IMG/VR virus record: IMGVR_UViG_3300046004_001005
Location: 1 to 37,385 of that record
Strand: one strand, 5' to 3'
Source of the DNA: a virus
Length of the DNA stretch: 37,385 bases
Part shown: one piece after another, positions 24,893 through 31,068 of the stretch
Numbering within the stretch: the stretch's first letter is position 1
Layout of the letters: each line of letters starts with the position of its first letter
Position numbers and translations under genes: made by a program
Notes under the pieces: model-generated
What the model was told of the DNA's origin: nothing
The model's database searches: none
Seen by the model: the letters and a program-made list of their open reading frames with translations, nothing else

Positions 24893-24923
24893 AGTATAGC
24901 GCTTTAATCGGGTTGGTGGTCAA
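24893..24923 (-). promoter_or_regulatory. Possible promoter behind terL
   Basis: On the minus strand, TTGACC at 24923-24918 and TATACT at 24898-24893 with a long 19-base spacer. The -10 is perfect but the spacing is poor; it would serve the 24526 and 23971 genes. Confidence 0.4.
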
Positions 24924-26242
24924 TACCCGAAGCGCACCGGCAAACTCATGACAGGCTGATGCAATGGCCATTCAACATGCACGCAATAACCGATGGCGGT
25001 CGTGATGTGCTGATACTTGTTTTTCTGGTCTTCTTGGAATGTAGAGCCTTCCTGTAGCTGCACGGTCGCCAAGCCCTTCTCGCACCACGGCGCAGTAACA
25101 GGGTTTACGTAAAGGCTGATATGGCCGTCCGCCGTCTTGATCTTGGCACGCACTGCGTTTTGGCGATCCTTGATAGCTGGCGCAGACTTCCTTACCTTTC
25201 GGTCAAACGTCCAGCCATTGGCGCGCAATACGTCTTCAATGTCGGTGTAGTCCGATGCGTGGCCGTGCTTCTCGCCTGCGCGCCCAGCTGGGTCGCCATA
25301 GATCAGAACGCGCTTGTTTTGGTGGTCTTTGTACCGCTCAACAAACTCTAGCGCAGACTGCTTTGAAACGGCGCTAGTCAGAACGATTTCGTCTAGCAGA
25401 TATAGAGCGTCACCACGACGAACACCGACCGCCGATGATAGCGGCGTGAAGTTCTGGTCGTGCATCCACATTAGCTGCTCGTGCGGCTCTATGGTCGCGT
25501 CCGTGTGGTTTGCTTTGCTGTAGTCTTCATAGATTCGCCCGCTCGCAGTCTCAAAGCTGGCTTCAAATTCTTGTTTGAACTGCTTTTCAGACATGCTGCG
25601 TTTCATTGCGGAGATTACGTCAGGCGGCAAGATTTCGGCAGACTTCCAATGGAATACTTCAAAGTCTGGGTTGTCGCCTATCTCGGCCTGACTGCACAGG
25701 TCGTAGTAGTGGTTCAAGCCATCTGGCACGCCTAGCAACCAGCACCACGCGCGGTAGTCTGGTCGCGTTGGGTTTACCGTGTTCAAGGCTGGCAGAATGT
25801 TGGCTTCCCATGCGTCCGCCTTAATGTCTGCGAACTCGTCAATGCCGCCTCCGTGCCAAGGGATACCCTCAATTCGCTGCGGCTTGTCCAGGCCAATGAC
25901 GTGGATCTCTGAGCCGTTCGGCATGTAGATTATGCGGTCTGACTCGGACGGTCGGCGCGGGTGAAGTGACGAAAGCGTGAACGCCTTCAAATCATCCCAA
26001 AAGATTTTTTTGGCCTGGTCGTGCGTTGGTGCTGCTGCAAAGTAAATACCTGGCACGGCATTTGCTTGATGCACTAGGAAGCGCTTAAACCGCTCGGTTT
26101 TGCCGCTCCGACGACCAGCAGGGACAAGGGGAAACCTGACGCCACGATGCACTGCGCCGATTAGCGATAGCTGTACATCGTGATCAATAAGCGGATACCA
26201 GCGCGCCAACTGGCGGTCTAGCAGGATATTGCCGGTAGTCAT
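24920..26242 (-). CDS. terL: Terminase large subunit
   Basis: A 440-residue packaging ATPase/nuclease. Walker A GRRSGKT at about residues 43-49; Walker B with IDEF at about residues 134-137 (GGGIDEFADIKADAWE); a coupling motif region WCWLLGVPDG. The C-terminal RNase H-like nuclease has YGDPAGRAGEKHGHASDY with its first catalytic Asp. It translocates DNA into the prohead and cuts concatemers. ATGA overlap with the small subunit. Confidence 0.93.
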   Translation of the reverse strand: MTTGNILLDRQLARWYPLIDHDVQLSLIGAVHRGVRFPLVPAGRRSGKTERFKRFLVHQANAVPGIYFAAAPTHDQAKKIFWDDLKAFTLSSLHPRRPSESDRIIYMPNGSEIHVIGLDKPQRIEGIPWHGGGIDEFADIKADAWEANILPALNTVNPTRPDYRAWCWLLGVPDGLNHYYDLCSQAEIGDNPDFEVFHWKSAEILPPDVISAMKRSMSEKQFKQEFEASFETASGRIYEDYSKANHTDATIEPHEQLMWMHDQNFTPLSSAVGVRRGDALYLLDEIVLTSAVSKQSALEFVERYKDHQNKRVLIYGDPAGRAGEKHGHASDYTDIEDVLRANGWTFDRKVRKSAPAIKDRQNAVRAKIKTADGHISLYVNPVTAPWCEKGLATVQLQEGSTFQEDQKNKYQHITTAIGYCVHVEWPLHQPVMSLPVRFGY

Positions 26243-26697
26243 CCAGGCAGCTTGCCAATGAGGTCTTGCAGGATGCCAGCCATATCCGGGCCTTTATGCT
26301 CAATAATCTGCTTATCGAGGCCGCACAGCTTTGCCTTTGACATAACGGCAGAAACCGCCGCGCTACATTGCGGGGTCTCAGCACCCAAAGCAACCGCCTT
26401 GATTTGGTTTAGCTCTTCAATCAACGATTCAACAGTAACCATAAATTCCTTCCTCACCTCTGCGCGCAGCTCTTCGACATACGCTTGCACAACAGGATTT
26501 CGCCATAGCCGCGAAGACATTTTGTTCAGATTGCTGCCAGTGGCTTTAGACCCGTAGATCTTCGCGTAGTGCTGGCCTTTGGTCATCTTGTGGTCTTTGT
26601 CCAGCACCACAGCGCGCGCAAAGGCCATGCTGCGTTCGTTCAGCTCTAGGGTGTCCGAATCGTGGCTATTTAGCTGGGCGTTTTGCTTAGTAGCCAT
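26239..26697 (-). CDS. terS: Terminase small subunit
   Basis: A 152-residue protein. A helix-turn-helix-like N-terminal region (ERSMAFARAVVLDKDHKMTK then GQHYAKIYGSKATGSNLNKM) carries the KIYGSKAxGSNxxxxSSRLxxNPxVxxYI pattern of phage terminase small subunits. A helical oligomerisation region follows. It recognises the packaging site, often located in or near its own gene. Its ATG overlaps the previous stop by one base and its stop overlaps terL. Confidence 0.9.
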   Translation of the reverse strand: MATKQNAQLNSHDSDTLELNERSMAFARAVVLDKDHKMTKGQHYAKIYGSKATGSNLNKMSSRLWRNPVVQAYVEELRAEVRKEFMVTVESLIEELNQIKAVALGAETPQCSAAVSAVMSKAKLCGLDKQIIEHKGPDMAGILQDLIGKLPG

Positions 26698-27264: not shown

Positions 27265-27321
27265 CCGTGTTGCATGTCGGCGCTGATTTGTGCATGCCAG
27301 TTTCGGCAGTGGCCTAGCGCC

Positions 27322-27486
27322 TTATTCTGTAACGTCTTTTACTACCTGCTTTACTTCCTTTGCGGCTTCCTGCGCAAGATCAGCAGCAGGCTTTGTGATG
27401 ATGCGCGCGGCATCAACTGCAATTTCAACCGGCGCTGCAACAACCTTCGCAACGTCACCGATAAGACCTACAAGCGAACCGAACAT
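27322..27486 (-). CDS. Small amphipathic protein (54 aa)
   Basis: A 54-residue protein (MFGSLVGLIGDVAKVVAAPV then EIAVDAARIITKPAADLAQE), Ala/Val-rich and amphipathic with a charged C-terminus (KEVKQVVKDVTE). Similar short MFGSLVG-type proteins occur in many phages with no assigned role; the helix could associate with membranes. Very good AAGGAG ribosome site 7-8 bases before the ATG. It is the first gene downstream of the structured region and is followed by a terminator. Confidence 0.75.
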   Translation of the reverse strand: MFGSLVGLIGDVAKVVAAPVEIAVDAARIITKPAADLAQEAAKEVKQVVKDVTE

Positions 27487-27510
27487 AGTTTAACTCCTTT
27501 GGTTTTTAGT

Positions 27511-27583
27511 AATGAATGGGCCTGATGCGAACCAGGCTCGGCTTCGCAGCTCGTTAGCGTATCGCCTACGCATTCCATTCATT
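27511..27583 (-). other. 73-nt four-armed, tRNA-like fold
   Basis: Closing stem AATGAATGG (27583-27575) with CCATTCATT (27519-27511), 9 perfect pairs. Inside: GCGTA-GGCGA-TACGC, GCT-GCGA-AGC and GCCTG-GTTCGCAT-CAGGC. The size and GG/TTC loops recall a tRNA, but the middle arm has no anticodon loop and no CCA follows. It ends 25 bases before the ATG at 27486. Confidence 0.6.
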
Positions 27584-27874
27584 CGGCTGGTGACTGATTC
27601 AGCGCGTCAACTAAGTGGCCGCTTCGGTCGTACCCTGCCCGCCTCGGGTCAATCACCATGCGAATAAATCCCCGTCTTTCCGGGGTGTCATGTCGTTTCG
27701 AGCCTTCTGACAGGAAGAGAAAGGGGTGTATGAACCCTGCTCTAGGCTACAGACCGTTACCAGTCTCAAATAATCGGAGCGGCTGTTACGGGGAGTATGC
27801 CGTACTTCGCTAAGCTTACCGACTCTGCGCGTTTGGCCTCACGCGGCGCATTAAAGCGCTTGGGTGTGTGAGGC
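27511..27874 (-). ncRNA. Candidate structured non-coding RNA or long structured leader
   Basis: The 404 bases from 27487 to 27890 hold no convincing gene on either strand. The minus strand can form a chain of stems (positions in the minus 5'-to-3' order): GCCTCAC/GTGAGGC at 27874-27836 with an inner GCGC stem; AGTCGG/CCGATT around 27823-27774 enclosing TACGG/CCGTA; AGACTG-GTAA-CGGTCT at 27766-27751; TGTCA/TGACA at 27712-27686; CCCCG/CGGGG at 27685-27670; a 9-bp closing stem at 27657-27649 with 27597-27589 enclosing CCCG-AGG-CGGG; and the four-armed element at 27583-27511. Several stems keep G-U pairs and GNRA loops only when read on the minus strand, matching operon direction. It may be a free RNA, a 5' leader or a packaging-related site. 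Not tested by folding software. Confidence 0.55.
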
Positions 27875-27890
27875 TGAGTTTAGCGCTAAT

Positions 27891-28079
27891 CTAGCCAGCC
27901 GCCAACAACTTCTGAATCTGCCTCTCAATCTTCCCGCGCTCAATCGCATTGCTGATCGTGAACAGAATCCACATGATCACCCACAGCCCGCCCGTCAAAA
28001 TGCTGGCGATAAAGTGCCAGCCGTGCGACGTGTCGTGCTTGTTGAGTTTGTTTAGCAGGATTTGCATGTTGTCGGTCAT
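27891..28079 (-). CDS. Small conserved membrane protein
   Basis: A 62-residue protein: a polar helix (DNMQILLNKLNKHDTSHG), then one membrane helix (FIASILTGGLWVIMWILFTI) and a basic end (AIERGKIERQIQKLLAAG). The LTGGLWxIxWIL plus SNAIERxKIE pattern recurs in short phage proteins of unknown role. I use the ATG at 28079, with GGAG about 10 bases upstream, rather than the start at 28133 inside the upstream gene. It ends the operon just before the structured RNA region. Confidence 0.72.
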   Translation of the reverse strand: MTDNMQILLNKLNKHDTSHGWHFIASILTGGLWVIMWILFTISNAIERGKIERQIQKLLAAG

Positions 28080-28126
28080 TCTCTGTATCTCCAGTAATGC
28101 GCCAGCATGGTGACTGGCGCGGGTAA

Positions 28127-28627
28127 TTAGCACATGCAGTTATCGTCAGTACACCCAACGCATCGGGTTAGCGGGCCGCCTGATACGCTGGATGATAAAC
28201 AGCCTTGACCGGTGAAGCCTCCCGACTTGAAGTCGCCCGACATAGCCTGTCCAGCCACTTTAATTTTATCGGCAATCGCTTGGAGCTGGTTTTCCTGACC
28301 GAAGTCGGCTGGCATATCGGCTATCGGGCGACCAATCATGAAGCGCTCTATAGTCTCCATGCGCTGACCGTAGAAGCTTGCCTTTTCTGCGTCATAAAGC
28401 CCGCCATCATGACCGCGCTTCCCCGGCTTAATTCGTGCGGCTCCTTTTCGCCAGATTGCCTTAAAGGCCTCGCCCTCTGAAAAGCTCAAGCCTAGCGCTT
28501 CGATAATGTCGTTGCATTCGGCTGTATAAGGTTCGCGCCCTTCTCGCGTAGGGTGAGCAATGTCAACCTCGTAGTAGTTGACCTTGCCGCCGCTGTACTC
28601 GGCTGTGCTGCCGTCACTGGCGCTCAT
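28127..28627 (-). CDS. Conserved phage protein with Cys-rich tail
   Basis: A 166-residue protein. The core (GGKVNYYEVDIAHPTREGRE, then IIEALGLSFSEGEAFKAIWR and LYDAEKASFYGQRM) belongs to a widespread phage family of unknown function with YYxVxI, AExxDIIEAL and FKAIWR blocks. The last 15 residues carry CVGCTDDNCMC, four Cys that could bind a metal and are often absent from the family. ATGA overlap with the HTH-like gene upstream. Confidence 0.8.
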   Translation of the reverse strand: MSASDGSTAEYSGGKVNYYEVDIAHPTREGREPYTAECNDIIEALGLSFSEGEAFKAIWRKGAARIKPGKRGHDGGLYDAEKASFYGQRMETIERFMIGRPIADMPADFGQENQLQAIADKIKVAGQAMSGDFKSGGFTGQGCLSSSVSGGPLTRCVGCTDDNCMC

Positions 28628-30372: not shown

Positions 30373-31068
30373 TCATGGTTTGTTTACCTCGGCTAGTTTG
30401 GCGTCGATGCGAGCTTCAAGCAGCTTATCGTCGAATGGGTCAAGCGCGGCCTTGGCCTGTCGCAGCAACTCCACCAGCTCAGCGTCAGGCTTGGCCCTTG
30501 ATTGGCGCGCTTGGTTCAGCTTCTGTTTGAGGCTGGCAATCTCTTTGCGCTGCTCTTCGATCAGCTCTTGGTCACGATCCCATGCCGCTTGAAGTGTCTC
30601 GATTGTCTCCGGGCATTTTTCGCCCTTGGCAAAGTTGACGCTGTGCGCTCGCCAGTCAGGCTTGGCCGGTGAGGTGTAGAGCGTGTGACGGCCTGCGCTC
30701 AGACCATGGTTGTGCCACTCCTTGATATGCAAGCCGCCATACGTTGAGTTTTCCACCAGCTCAACCGTCAGGGATTCCTTGACAGTTGCCTCACCCTGCA
30801 CAGGCTCGGCGGATTGGGCGCGGGTGTTCCAATGCTTAATCGCCTGCGCCTTAGCCCGCTCAATAAATTCCTCGCCGTAGCGGGAGTCTTTAAACGTGTC
30901 GGCGCTTCGTTCCACAAGCGTCATCAGGTCGCATATCTGGACGCTGGCCATAGCTTGGCCGCAGCCGCTGCACTCGATTTCGTACTGAGTGCCGTCGCCG
31001 CTTGGCAGCTCTGGCGACTCACCACAAAACGGACACGGCAGTAGCTCGGTTTGCTTGGTTGCGGTCAT
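30373..31068 (-). CDS. Lar-like (restriction alleviation type) zinc-finger protein with coiled-coil tail
   Basis: A 231-residue protein. The first 85 residues have the Lar pattern: LLPCPFCGESPEL, then IECSGCGQAM and a KHWNTRA end. Lar proteins of Rac and lambda-like phages lessen type I restriction, but many proteins with this finger lack that proof. Residues 90-150 are a mixed region (GLHIKEWHNHGLSAG). The C-terminal 80 are coiled coil (EEQRKEIASLKQKLNQARQS). An orphan methyltransferase elsewhere also fits an anti-restriction theme. ATGA overlap with the preceding gene. Confidence 0.75.
   Translation of the reverse strand: MTATKQTELLPCPFCGESPELPSGDGTQYEIECSGCGQAMASVQICDLMTLVERSADTFKDSRYGEEFIERAKAQAIKHWNTRAQSAEPVQGEATVKESLTVELVENSTYGGLHIKEWHNHGLSAGRHTLYTSPAKPDWRAHSVNFAKGEKCPETIETLQAAWDRDQELIEEQRKEIASLKQKLNQARQSRAKPDAELVELLRQAKAALDPFDDKLLEARIDAKLAEVNKP

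Follow-up and report, generated by a model that had tools for sequence, protein, structure and literature searches.

The window analysed here is a virus record of 37,385 bases from a tailed phage. Its terminase large subunit, TerL, shares up to 88% identity with viral contigs and about 81% with Acinetobacter and Stenotrophomonas phages. On the minus strand, a stretch at 27487-27890 separates a small ORF from the genes leading to the terminase. The first-pass annotation had described this stretch as gene-free, and we agree, as it contains no annotated or conserved ORF and the short ORFs within it are not conserved in relatives. The genes around it are:

27891-28133, minus strand: small ORF upstream of the RNA stretch
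27487-27890, minus strand: structured-RNA stretch, between the small ORF and the 54-residue ORF
27322-27486, minus strand: next gene downstream, a 54-residue ORF of PHROG 9123, to which PHROG assigns no function
26239-26697, minus strand: terS, terminase small subunit gene, downstream of the RNA stretch
24920-26242, minus strand: terL, terminase large subunit gene, downstream of the RNA stretch

A further gene of the window (30373-31068, minus strand) encodes a Lar-type restriction alleviation domain.

The main feature of the stretch is a 73-nt domain, module D, which ends 24 nt before the start codon of the PHROG 9123 ORF. It is preceded by modules C, B and, tentatively, A, and by a 5' part:

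27751-27890, minus strand: 5' part with the first three stems of the first-pass annotation; local fold z -2.5
27699-27743, minus strand: module A (tentative), GAGC/GCTC around a GGGT...ACCC hairpin, conserved only between the window and locus L082
27670-27690, minus strand: module B, hairpin TGACA-CCCC-GGAAAGAC-GGGG with conserved pairing; z -3.0
27577-27669, minus strand: module C, in 28 loci in a fixed register, both stems covarying
27661-27669 with 27577-27585, minus strand: lower stem of module C, followed by the internal loop CATG/AGC
27649-27657 with 27589-27597, minus strand: upper stem of module C, with a variable apex; homologue GGTGACTTG/CAAGTCACC in L082
27577-27583, minus strand: linker strand common to the module C lower stem and the module D closing stem, two mutually exclusive helices
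27511-27583, minus strand: module D, probable tRNA-like domain, 73-nt cloverleaf, with support from a covariance model, the fold and covariation
27575-27583, minus strand: 5' strand of the 9-bp acceptor-like closing stem, AATGAATGG, pairing with 27511-27519
27557-27571, minus strand: hairpin 1, D-arm-like, GCGTA-GGCGA-TACGC; the stem covaries
27562-27565, minus strand: loop 1, GCGA, proposed kissing partner of 27527-27530; coordinated loop change
27538-27556, minus strand: short variable arm replacing the anticodon arm; length in relatives about 10-190 nt
27520-27537, minus strand: hairpin 3, T-arm-like, GCCTG-GTTCGCAT-CAGGC; the stem covaries
27527-27530, minus strand: loop 3, TCGC, proposed kissing partner of 27562-27565; coordinated loop change
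27511-27519, minus strand: closing stem, 3' strand, CCATTCATT; ACTA comes next

All seven minus-strand stems named in the first-pass annotation are present. Comparison with relatives firmly establishes three of them, CCCCG/CGGGG (module B), GGTGATTGA/TCAGTCACC (module C) and AATGAATGG/CCATTCATT (module D), while the first three stems, at 27751-27874, have no homologue. Absent from that list are the hairpins at 27557-27571 and 27520-27537 and their loop-loop pairing, which belong to the same domain as the module D closing stem.

A nucleotide search of phage and plasmid records, the route to homologues that the annotation had proposed, gave no match to the stretch, presumably because the modules diverge too fast. 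The first homologues came instead from loci collected through relatives of the terminase and of the neighbouring proteins. The closest, L082, is 72% identical to the window over 213 nt, and L083, L084 and L037 have short blocks in common with it. In L082 the CCCC/GGGG hairpin has become ACTC/GAGT and the GGTGATTGA/TCAGTCACC stem has become GGTGACTTG/CAAGTCACC, indicating that pairing is preserved while the sequence varies. The block GAATGCGTAGGC..GATRCG was then found in at least 120 stretches of viral contigs, against about 10 estimated by chance. Nearly all of these stretches show module D, and about 100 of them score highly against the full-length model. About 110 viral or prophage loci contain module D, and the genome matches with full-length scores are all from Proteobacteria where the organism is named.

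Across the family, module D keeps a common order. A closing stem, mostly of 7-9 bp, and the 3-nt spacer AAT lead into a first hairpin of 5 bp, whose loop has 5-6 nt. After a variable part of about 10-190 nt comes a second hairpin, again of 5 bp but with 8-9 nt in its loop, and the closing strand completes the module. Among 47 distinct D modules, 94.8% of the paired cells are complementary, compared with 79.9% after shuffling and 29-44% when the strands are slid, and seven of eight scored pairs of the closing stem show changes on both sides. As these 47 modules had been selected partly by pairing, the test was repeated with an anchor consisting of the loop motif only. With this anchor the closing positions are paired in 94% of cases, compared with 59% (maximum 65%) with shuffled partners.

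The two outer loops also match each other, GGCTGA occurring with TCAGC/T in 73 of 74 cases and GGCGA with TCGC in all 14. Three loci that were not chosen by the module D loop motif add to this evidence. L329, found through another motif, carries GATGA opposite TCATC, a compensatory loop change, and hairpin 1 is changed on both sides in the P1-like L283 and the prophage L284. In loci of this kind the hairpin 1 stem reads, for example, GCACA/TGTGC or ACGCA/TGCGT. Furthermore, a covariance model built from 49 sequences that did not include the window matches 27511-27583 with 34.1 bits (E 2.5e-8).

The covariation in modules D, C and B is strong and rules out chance hairpins as an explanation. The 404 nt taken as one fold are not unusually stable relative to shuffled controls (z -1.38 on the minus strand, -1.81 on the plus strand). 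Single domains on the minus strand give z -3.1 for 27511-27583, where module D alone folds as a four-armed cloverleaf, z -3.2 for 27575-27669, which spans module C, and z -3.0 for 27670-27690. The argument for the minus strand holds as well, since the family alignment contains many U-G pairs, each of which would become A-C on the opposite strand, and the neighbouring tRNAs lie on the same strand; a plus-strand RNA is the weaker candidate given these U-G pairs and the tRNA orientation. No known Rfam family matches the window, even at E 5. Together with the covariation and the independent covariance-model match, this supports the proposal of a new structured minus-strand RNA.

The modules upstream of D differ in how widely they are found. 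Module B takes the form GAC, a 4-5-bp stem and the loop GGAAAGAC across the family; 21 copies near module D, collected with no condition on pairing, are 97.6% paired against 56% when shuffled, and contain ten different stems. An intrinsic terminator at module B was considered and rejected, because the terminator scan flags it at a chance number and most copies have no T run. L037, a phage that otherwise differs, carries a lone module B (TGACACCCCGGAAAGACGGGG) at 160-190, directly ahead of a gene and with a T run behind it. A 12-codon frame, MTPRKDGDLFAW, runs over modules B and C (27652-27690, minus strand) and is also open in L082, as MTTRKDEYLFAW. It was rejected as coding, as no ribosome site precedes it and the differences between the two copies are of the kind that preserves pairing in the B stem. 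For the 5' part at 27751-27890 no homologue was found, and no relative covers it.

Modules C and D are linked through their sequences. The C lower stem and the D closing stem need the same strand, and both pairings are conserved, which indicates that the two helices compete. In L258 both competing pairings are kept despite sequence change (CACTCACACG - CGTGTGAGTG - CACTCACA). This strand exchange from C to D may act as a switch between two states or may be no more than a step in folding.

The variable parts of module C contain sequences resembling the T arm of tRNA (GGTTCRANTCC), enriched over the flanks, at L082 116-190, L276 2590-2640, L283 3960-4030 and L232 555-640. Arrays of B, C and D modules occur in L204, L233, L237, L262, L264 and L331, with near-identical boxes between variable parts, and look as if cassettes had been exchanged.

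The order of the elements in module D, acceptor, D arm, variable arm, T arm and acceptor, together with the contact between the outer loops, is the layout of a tRNA, suggesting a tRNA-like domain. The general features of tRNA-like RNAs, an acceptor and D and T arms with a D-loop/T-loop contact, are seen in the fold, the covariation and the loop change. On the other hand, module D is recognised neither by ARAGORN nor by the Rfam tRNA model (RF00005). Where a tRNA would carry a 5-bp anticodon arm with a 7-nt loop, the window has the short variable arm at 27538-27556, the loops of module D differ from the D and T loop consensus of tRNA, and the closing stem is followed by ACTA in the place of an encoded CCA; L082 and L083 have ACCA at this position. 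In the family, CCA stands at offset 0 or 1 past the closing helix in 25 of 125 modules against 3.5 expected (raw counts), a sevenfold enrichment.

The genomic neighbourhood also speaks for a tRNA-like domain. In raw counts across related phages, the nearest tRNA lies on the same strand as module D in 23 of the 24 tRNA-bearing loci, and is 0-6 nt away or overlapping in 10 of them. In L192, a 64-nt module D is sandwiched by tRNA-Cys and tRNA-Gly within a cluster of twelve tRNAs. Terminators follow within 220 nt downstream of 12 of 125 modules, compared with 2-4 in controls. Taken together, module D is likely a tRNA-like RNA. This layout, the loop-loop contact and the wide distribution go beyond what the first-pass annotation had proposed.

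Several known RNAs share parts of this design. Phage tRNA genes lie in the same clusters and on the same strand as module D, have a similar size and partly encode CCA, whereas module D is ARAGORN-negative, has no normal anticodon arm, an acceptor mostly of 7-9 bp and a Watson-Crick loop-loop pairing. The C4 RNA of P1 is a substrate of RNase P, and the C4 RNAs of phages P1 and P7 provide a precedent for a phage RNA released by this enzyme, though the window has no Rfam match to them. tmRNA has a tRNA-like layout as well; however, the window has no Rfam match to it, and ARAGORN found no tmRNA gene with a tag peptide. RNase P processes the tmRNA precursor and phage RNAs (PMC12710915). The bacterial Y RNA YrlA (RF02553), a precedent for a tRNA-like domain in bacteria (PMC8394870), has acceptor, D and T arms and, like module D, a different stretch of RNA where the anticodon arm would be, but its loop contact differs and its Rfam model has no match in the window.

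The nearest Rfam family to module D is STnc100 (RF02076), a prophage sRNA detected by Northern blot in EHEC (PMC5331693), whose function is unsettled (PMC12370729). It has the same layout, with a GGUGAAU closing stem, a 5-bp hairpin with a 6-nt loop, a variable middle and a CCGG..CCGG hairpin joined directly to the closing strand, and it shares a genomic niche with module D. In L246 (1507-3075), three STnc100 copies, three tRNAs and one module D lie in a row, supporting a common niche. Forms that look intermediate between STnc100 and module D are found in P1 (L348 23079-23202), in P1-like plasmids and in E. coli K-12 between dicF and dicB. The K-12 intermediate, in prophage Qin about 27 nt before dicB (NC_000913 1649454-1649581; L351 19455-19582), is STnc100-like and a weak match to the model (22 bits, E 5e-4).

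These intermediates raise a more specific form of a trans-acting role, in which module D would be a base-pairing sRNA or sponge of the Hfq or ProQ type, similar to STnc100 and PasD, and the variable arms would serve as its seeds. STnc100 and the structurally related PasD are both prophage sRNAs with different seeds (PMC13192938), and STnc100 is expressed in EHEC. However, STnc100 and PasD belong to enterobacterial prophages while D modules occur in many more hosts, and Hfq biology differs outside the enterobacteria. The window and most D modules fall below the STnc100 model (gathering score 47), which has no match in 27300-28000 at E up to 5, and the hairpin and loop sequences differ. Moreover, no terminator follows module D in the window. 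We regard a base-pairing role of this kind as somewhat unlikely for module D, although it remains one of the two main rivals.

Members of this RNA family occur in many proteobacterial phages, P1 among them, as well as in prophages and phage-plasmids. Neither in Rfam nor in searches of the open literature did we find a description of the core sequence or of such phage tRNA-like RNAs. The family is real and widespread, its structure has good support, and it appears to be undescribed, with a layout related to that of STnc100. Its genomic settings are diverse: in E. coli lambdoid prophages, module D has Q on one side and the holin gene on the other, and in P1 and P1-like plasmids it comes after tRNA-Thr; elsewhere, recombination genes and Q are found upstream and terminase, holin, lysozyme or methyltransferase genes downstream. 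Two family members are located on the plus strand of P1 (NC_005856 69817-69918 and 70078-70201, equal to L348 22818-22919 and 23079-23202), opposite or adjacent to the ORFs annotated as plp and upl, which may not be genes.

This diversity separates the three roles suggested by the first-pass annotation. A trans-acting RNA fits the varied settings best, whereas a packaging RNA or a leader of the terminase block is unlikely, because the downstream genes vary. No single downstream gene is constant among the relatives, as a leader would have it, and few are terminases; there are only 9 model matches among 81 loci, nearly all TerL relatives. An element that acts on RNA polymerase or terminase, in antitermination or packaging, would fit the frequent position after Q, where the late region starts, and here before terS and terL; with modules also in tRNA clusters and beside the P1 tRNA genes, and with no fixed link to terminase, we consider it highly improbable.

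The position of module D relative to the next gene also bears on the second main rival, punctuation in cis. Here the fold would mainly be a processing site or a 5' protection of the late mRNA, and the released RNA would be functionless. In agreement with this, a start codon with a Shine-Dalgarno sequence lies 14-40 nt beyond the end of 23 of 115 modules, including that of the window, and others are directly followed by a tRNA, much as tRNAs punctuate transcripts. Yet other modules precede a tRNA or a terminator, the arrays contain several different modules, the downstream genes differ among loci, and a cut site needs no long, fast-changing variable arms. A role purely in cis is thus unlikely in our view.

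The variable arms have a further possible explanation, in which the RNA is a decoy that titrates anticodon nucleases or similar enzymes of tRNA-directed host defence or toxins, the variable arm tracking these enzymes. The tRNA-like layout, the tRNA neighbourhood and the fast change of the arms would suit a decoy, as would genuine T-arm sequences, which are about ten to forty times commoner in the upstream variable parts than in the flanks. These T arms are present in only 7 of 121 loci, however, and some may be part of genuine tRNAs nearby; an anticodon-like loop is missing from the window copy, and no defence target is known. We therefore hold a decoy to be quite improbable.

The reading that we prefer, though with about as much doubt as confidence, is that module D is a tRNA-like RNA cut from the late transcript by the host tRNA-processing enzymes and acting in trans. 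The layout and the neighbourhood in the genomes suggest a pathway in which the module would be transcribed within the late operon and released by host RNase P at its 5' end and by RNase E/Z at its 3' end. The compact fold would then confer stability, and through its variable arms the RNA would act in trans, either in regulation or by mimicking a tRNA. In the window, the late mRNA would by this release also acquire a 5' end 24 nt ahead of the next start codon. The tRNA-like layout leaves modules B and C, which lie upstream, unexplained.

More tentatively, the family may represent an undescribed large class of phage RNAs, in which a tRNA-like scaffold with a Watson-Crick elbow would serve as a release and stability cassette for fast-changing payloads, using the host tRNA-processing enzymes, and in which the exchange between modules C and D may switch states. 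The family is common yet unannotated in classical genomes such as those of phage P1 and E. coli prophages, and is amenable to testing in standard laboratory phages. It offers one frame for the noncoding gaps adjacent to tRNA genes and for the poorly understood STnc100, and suggests a wide use of tRNA-like RNAs by phages outside translation.
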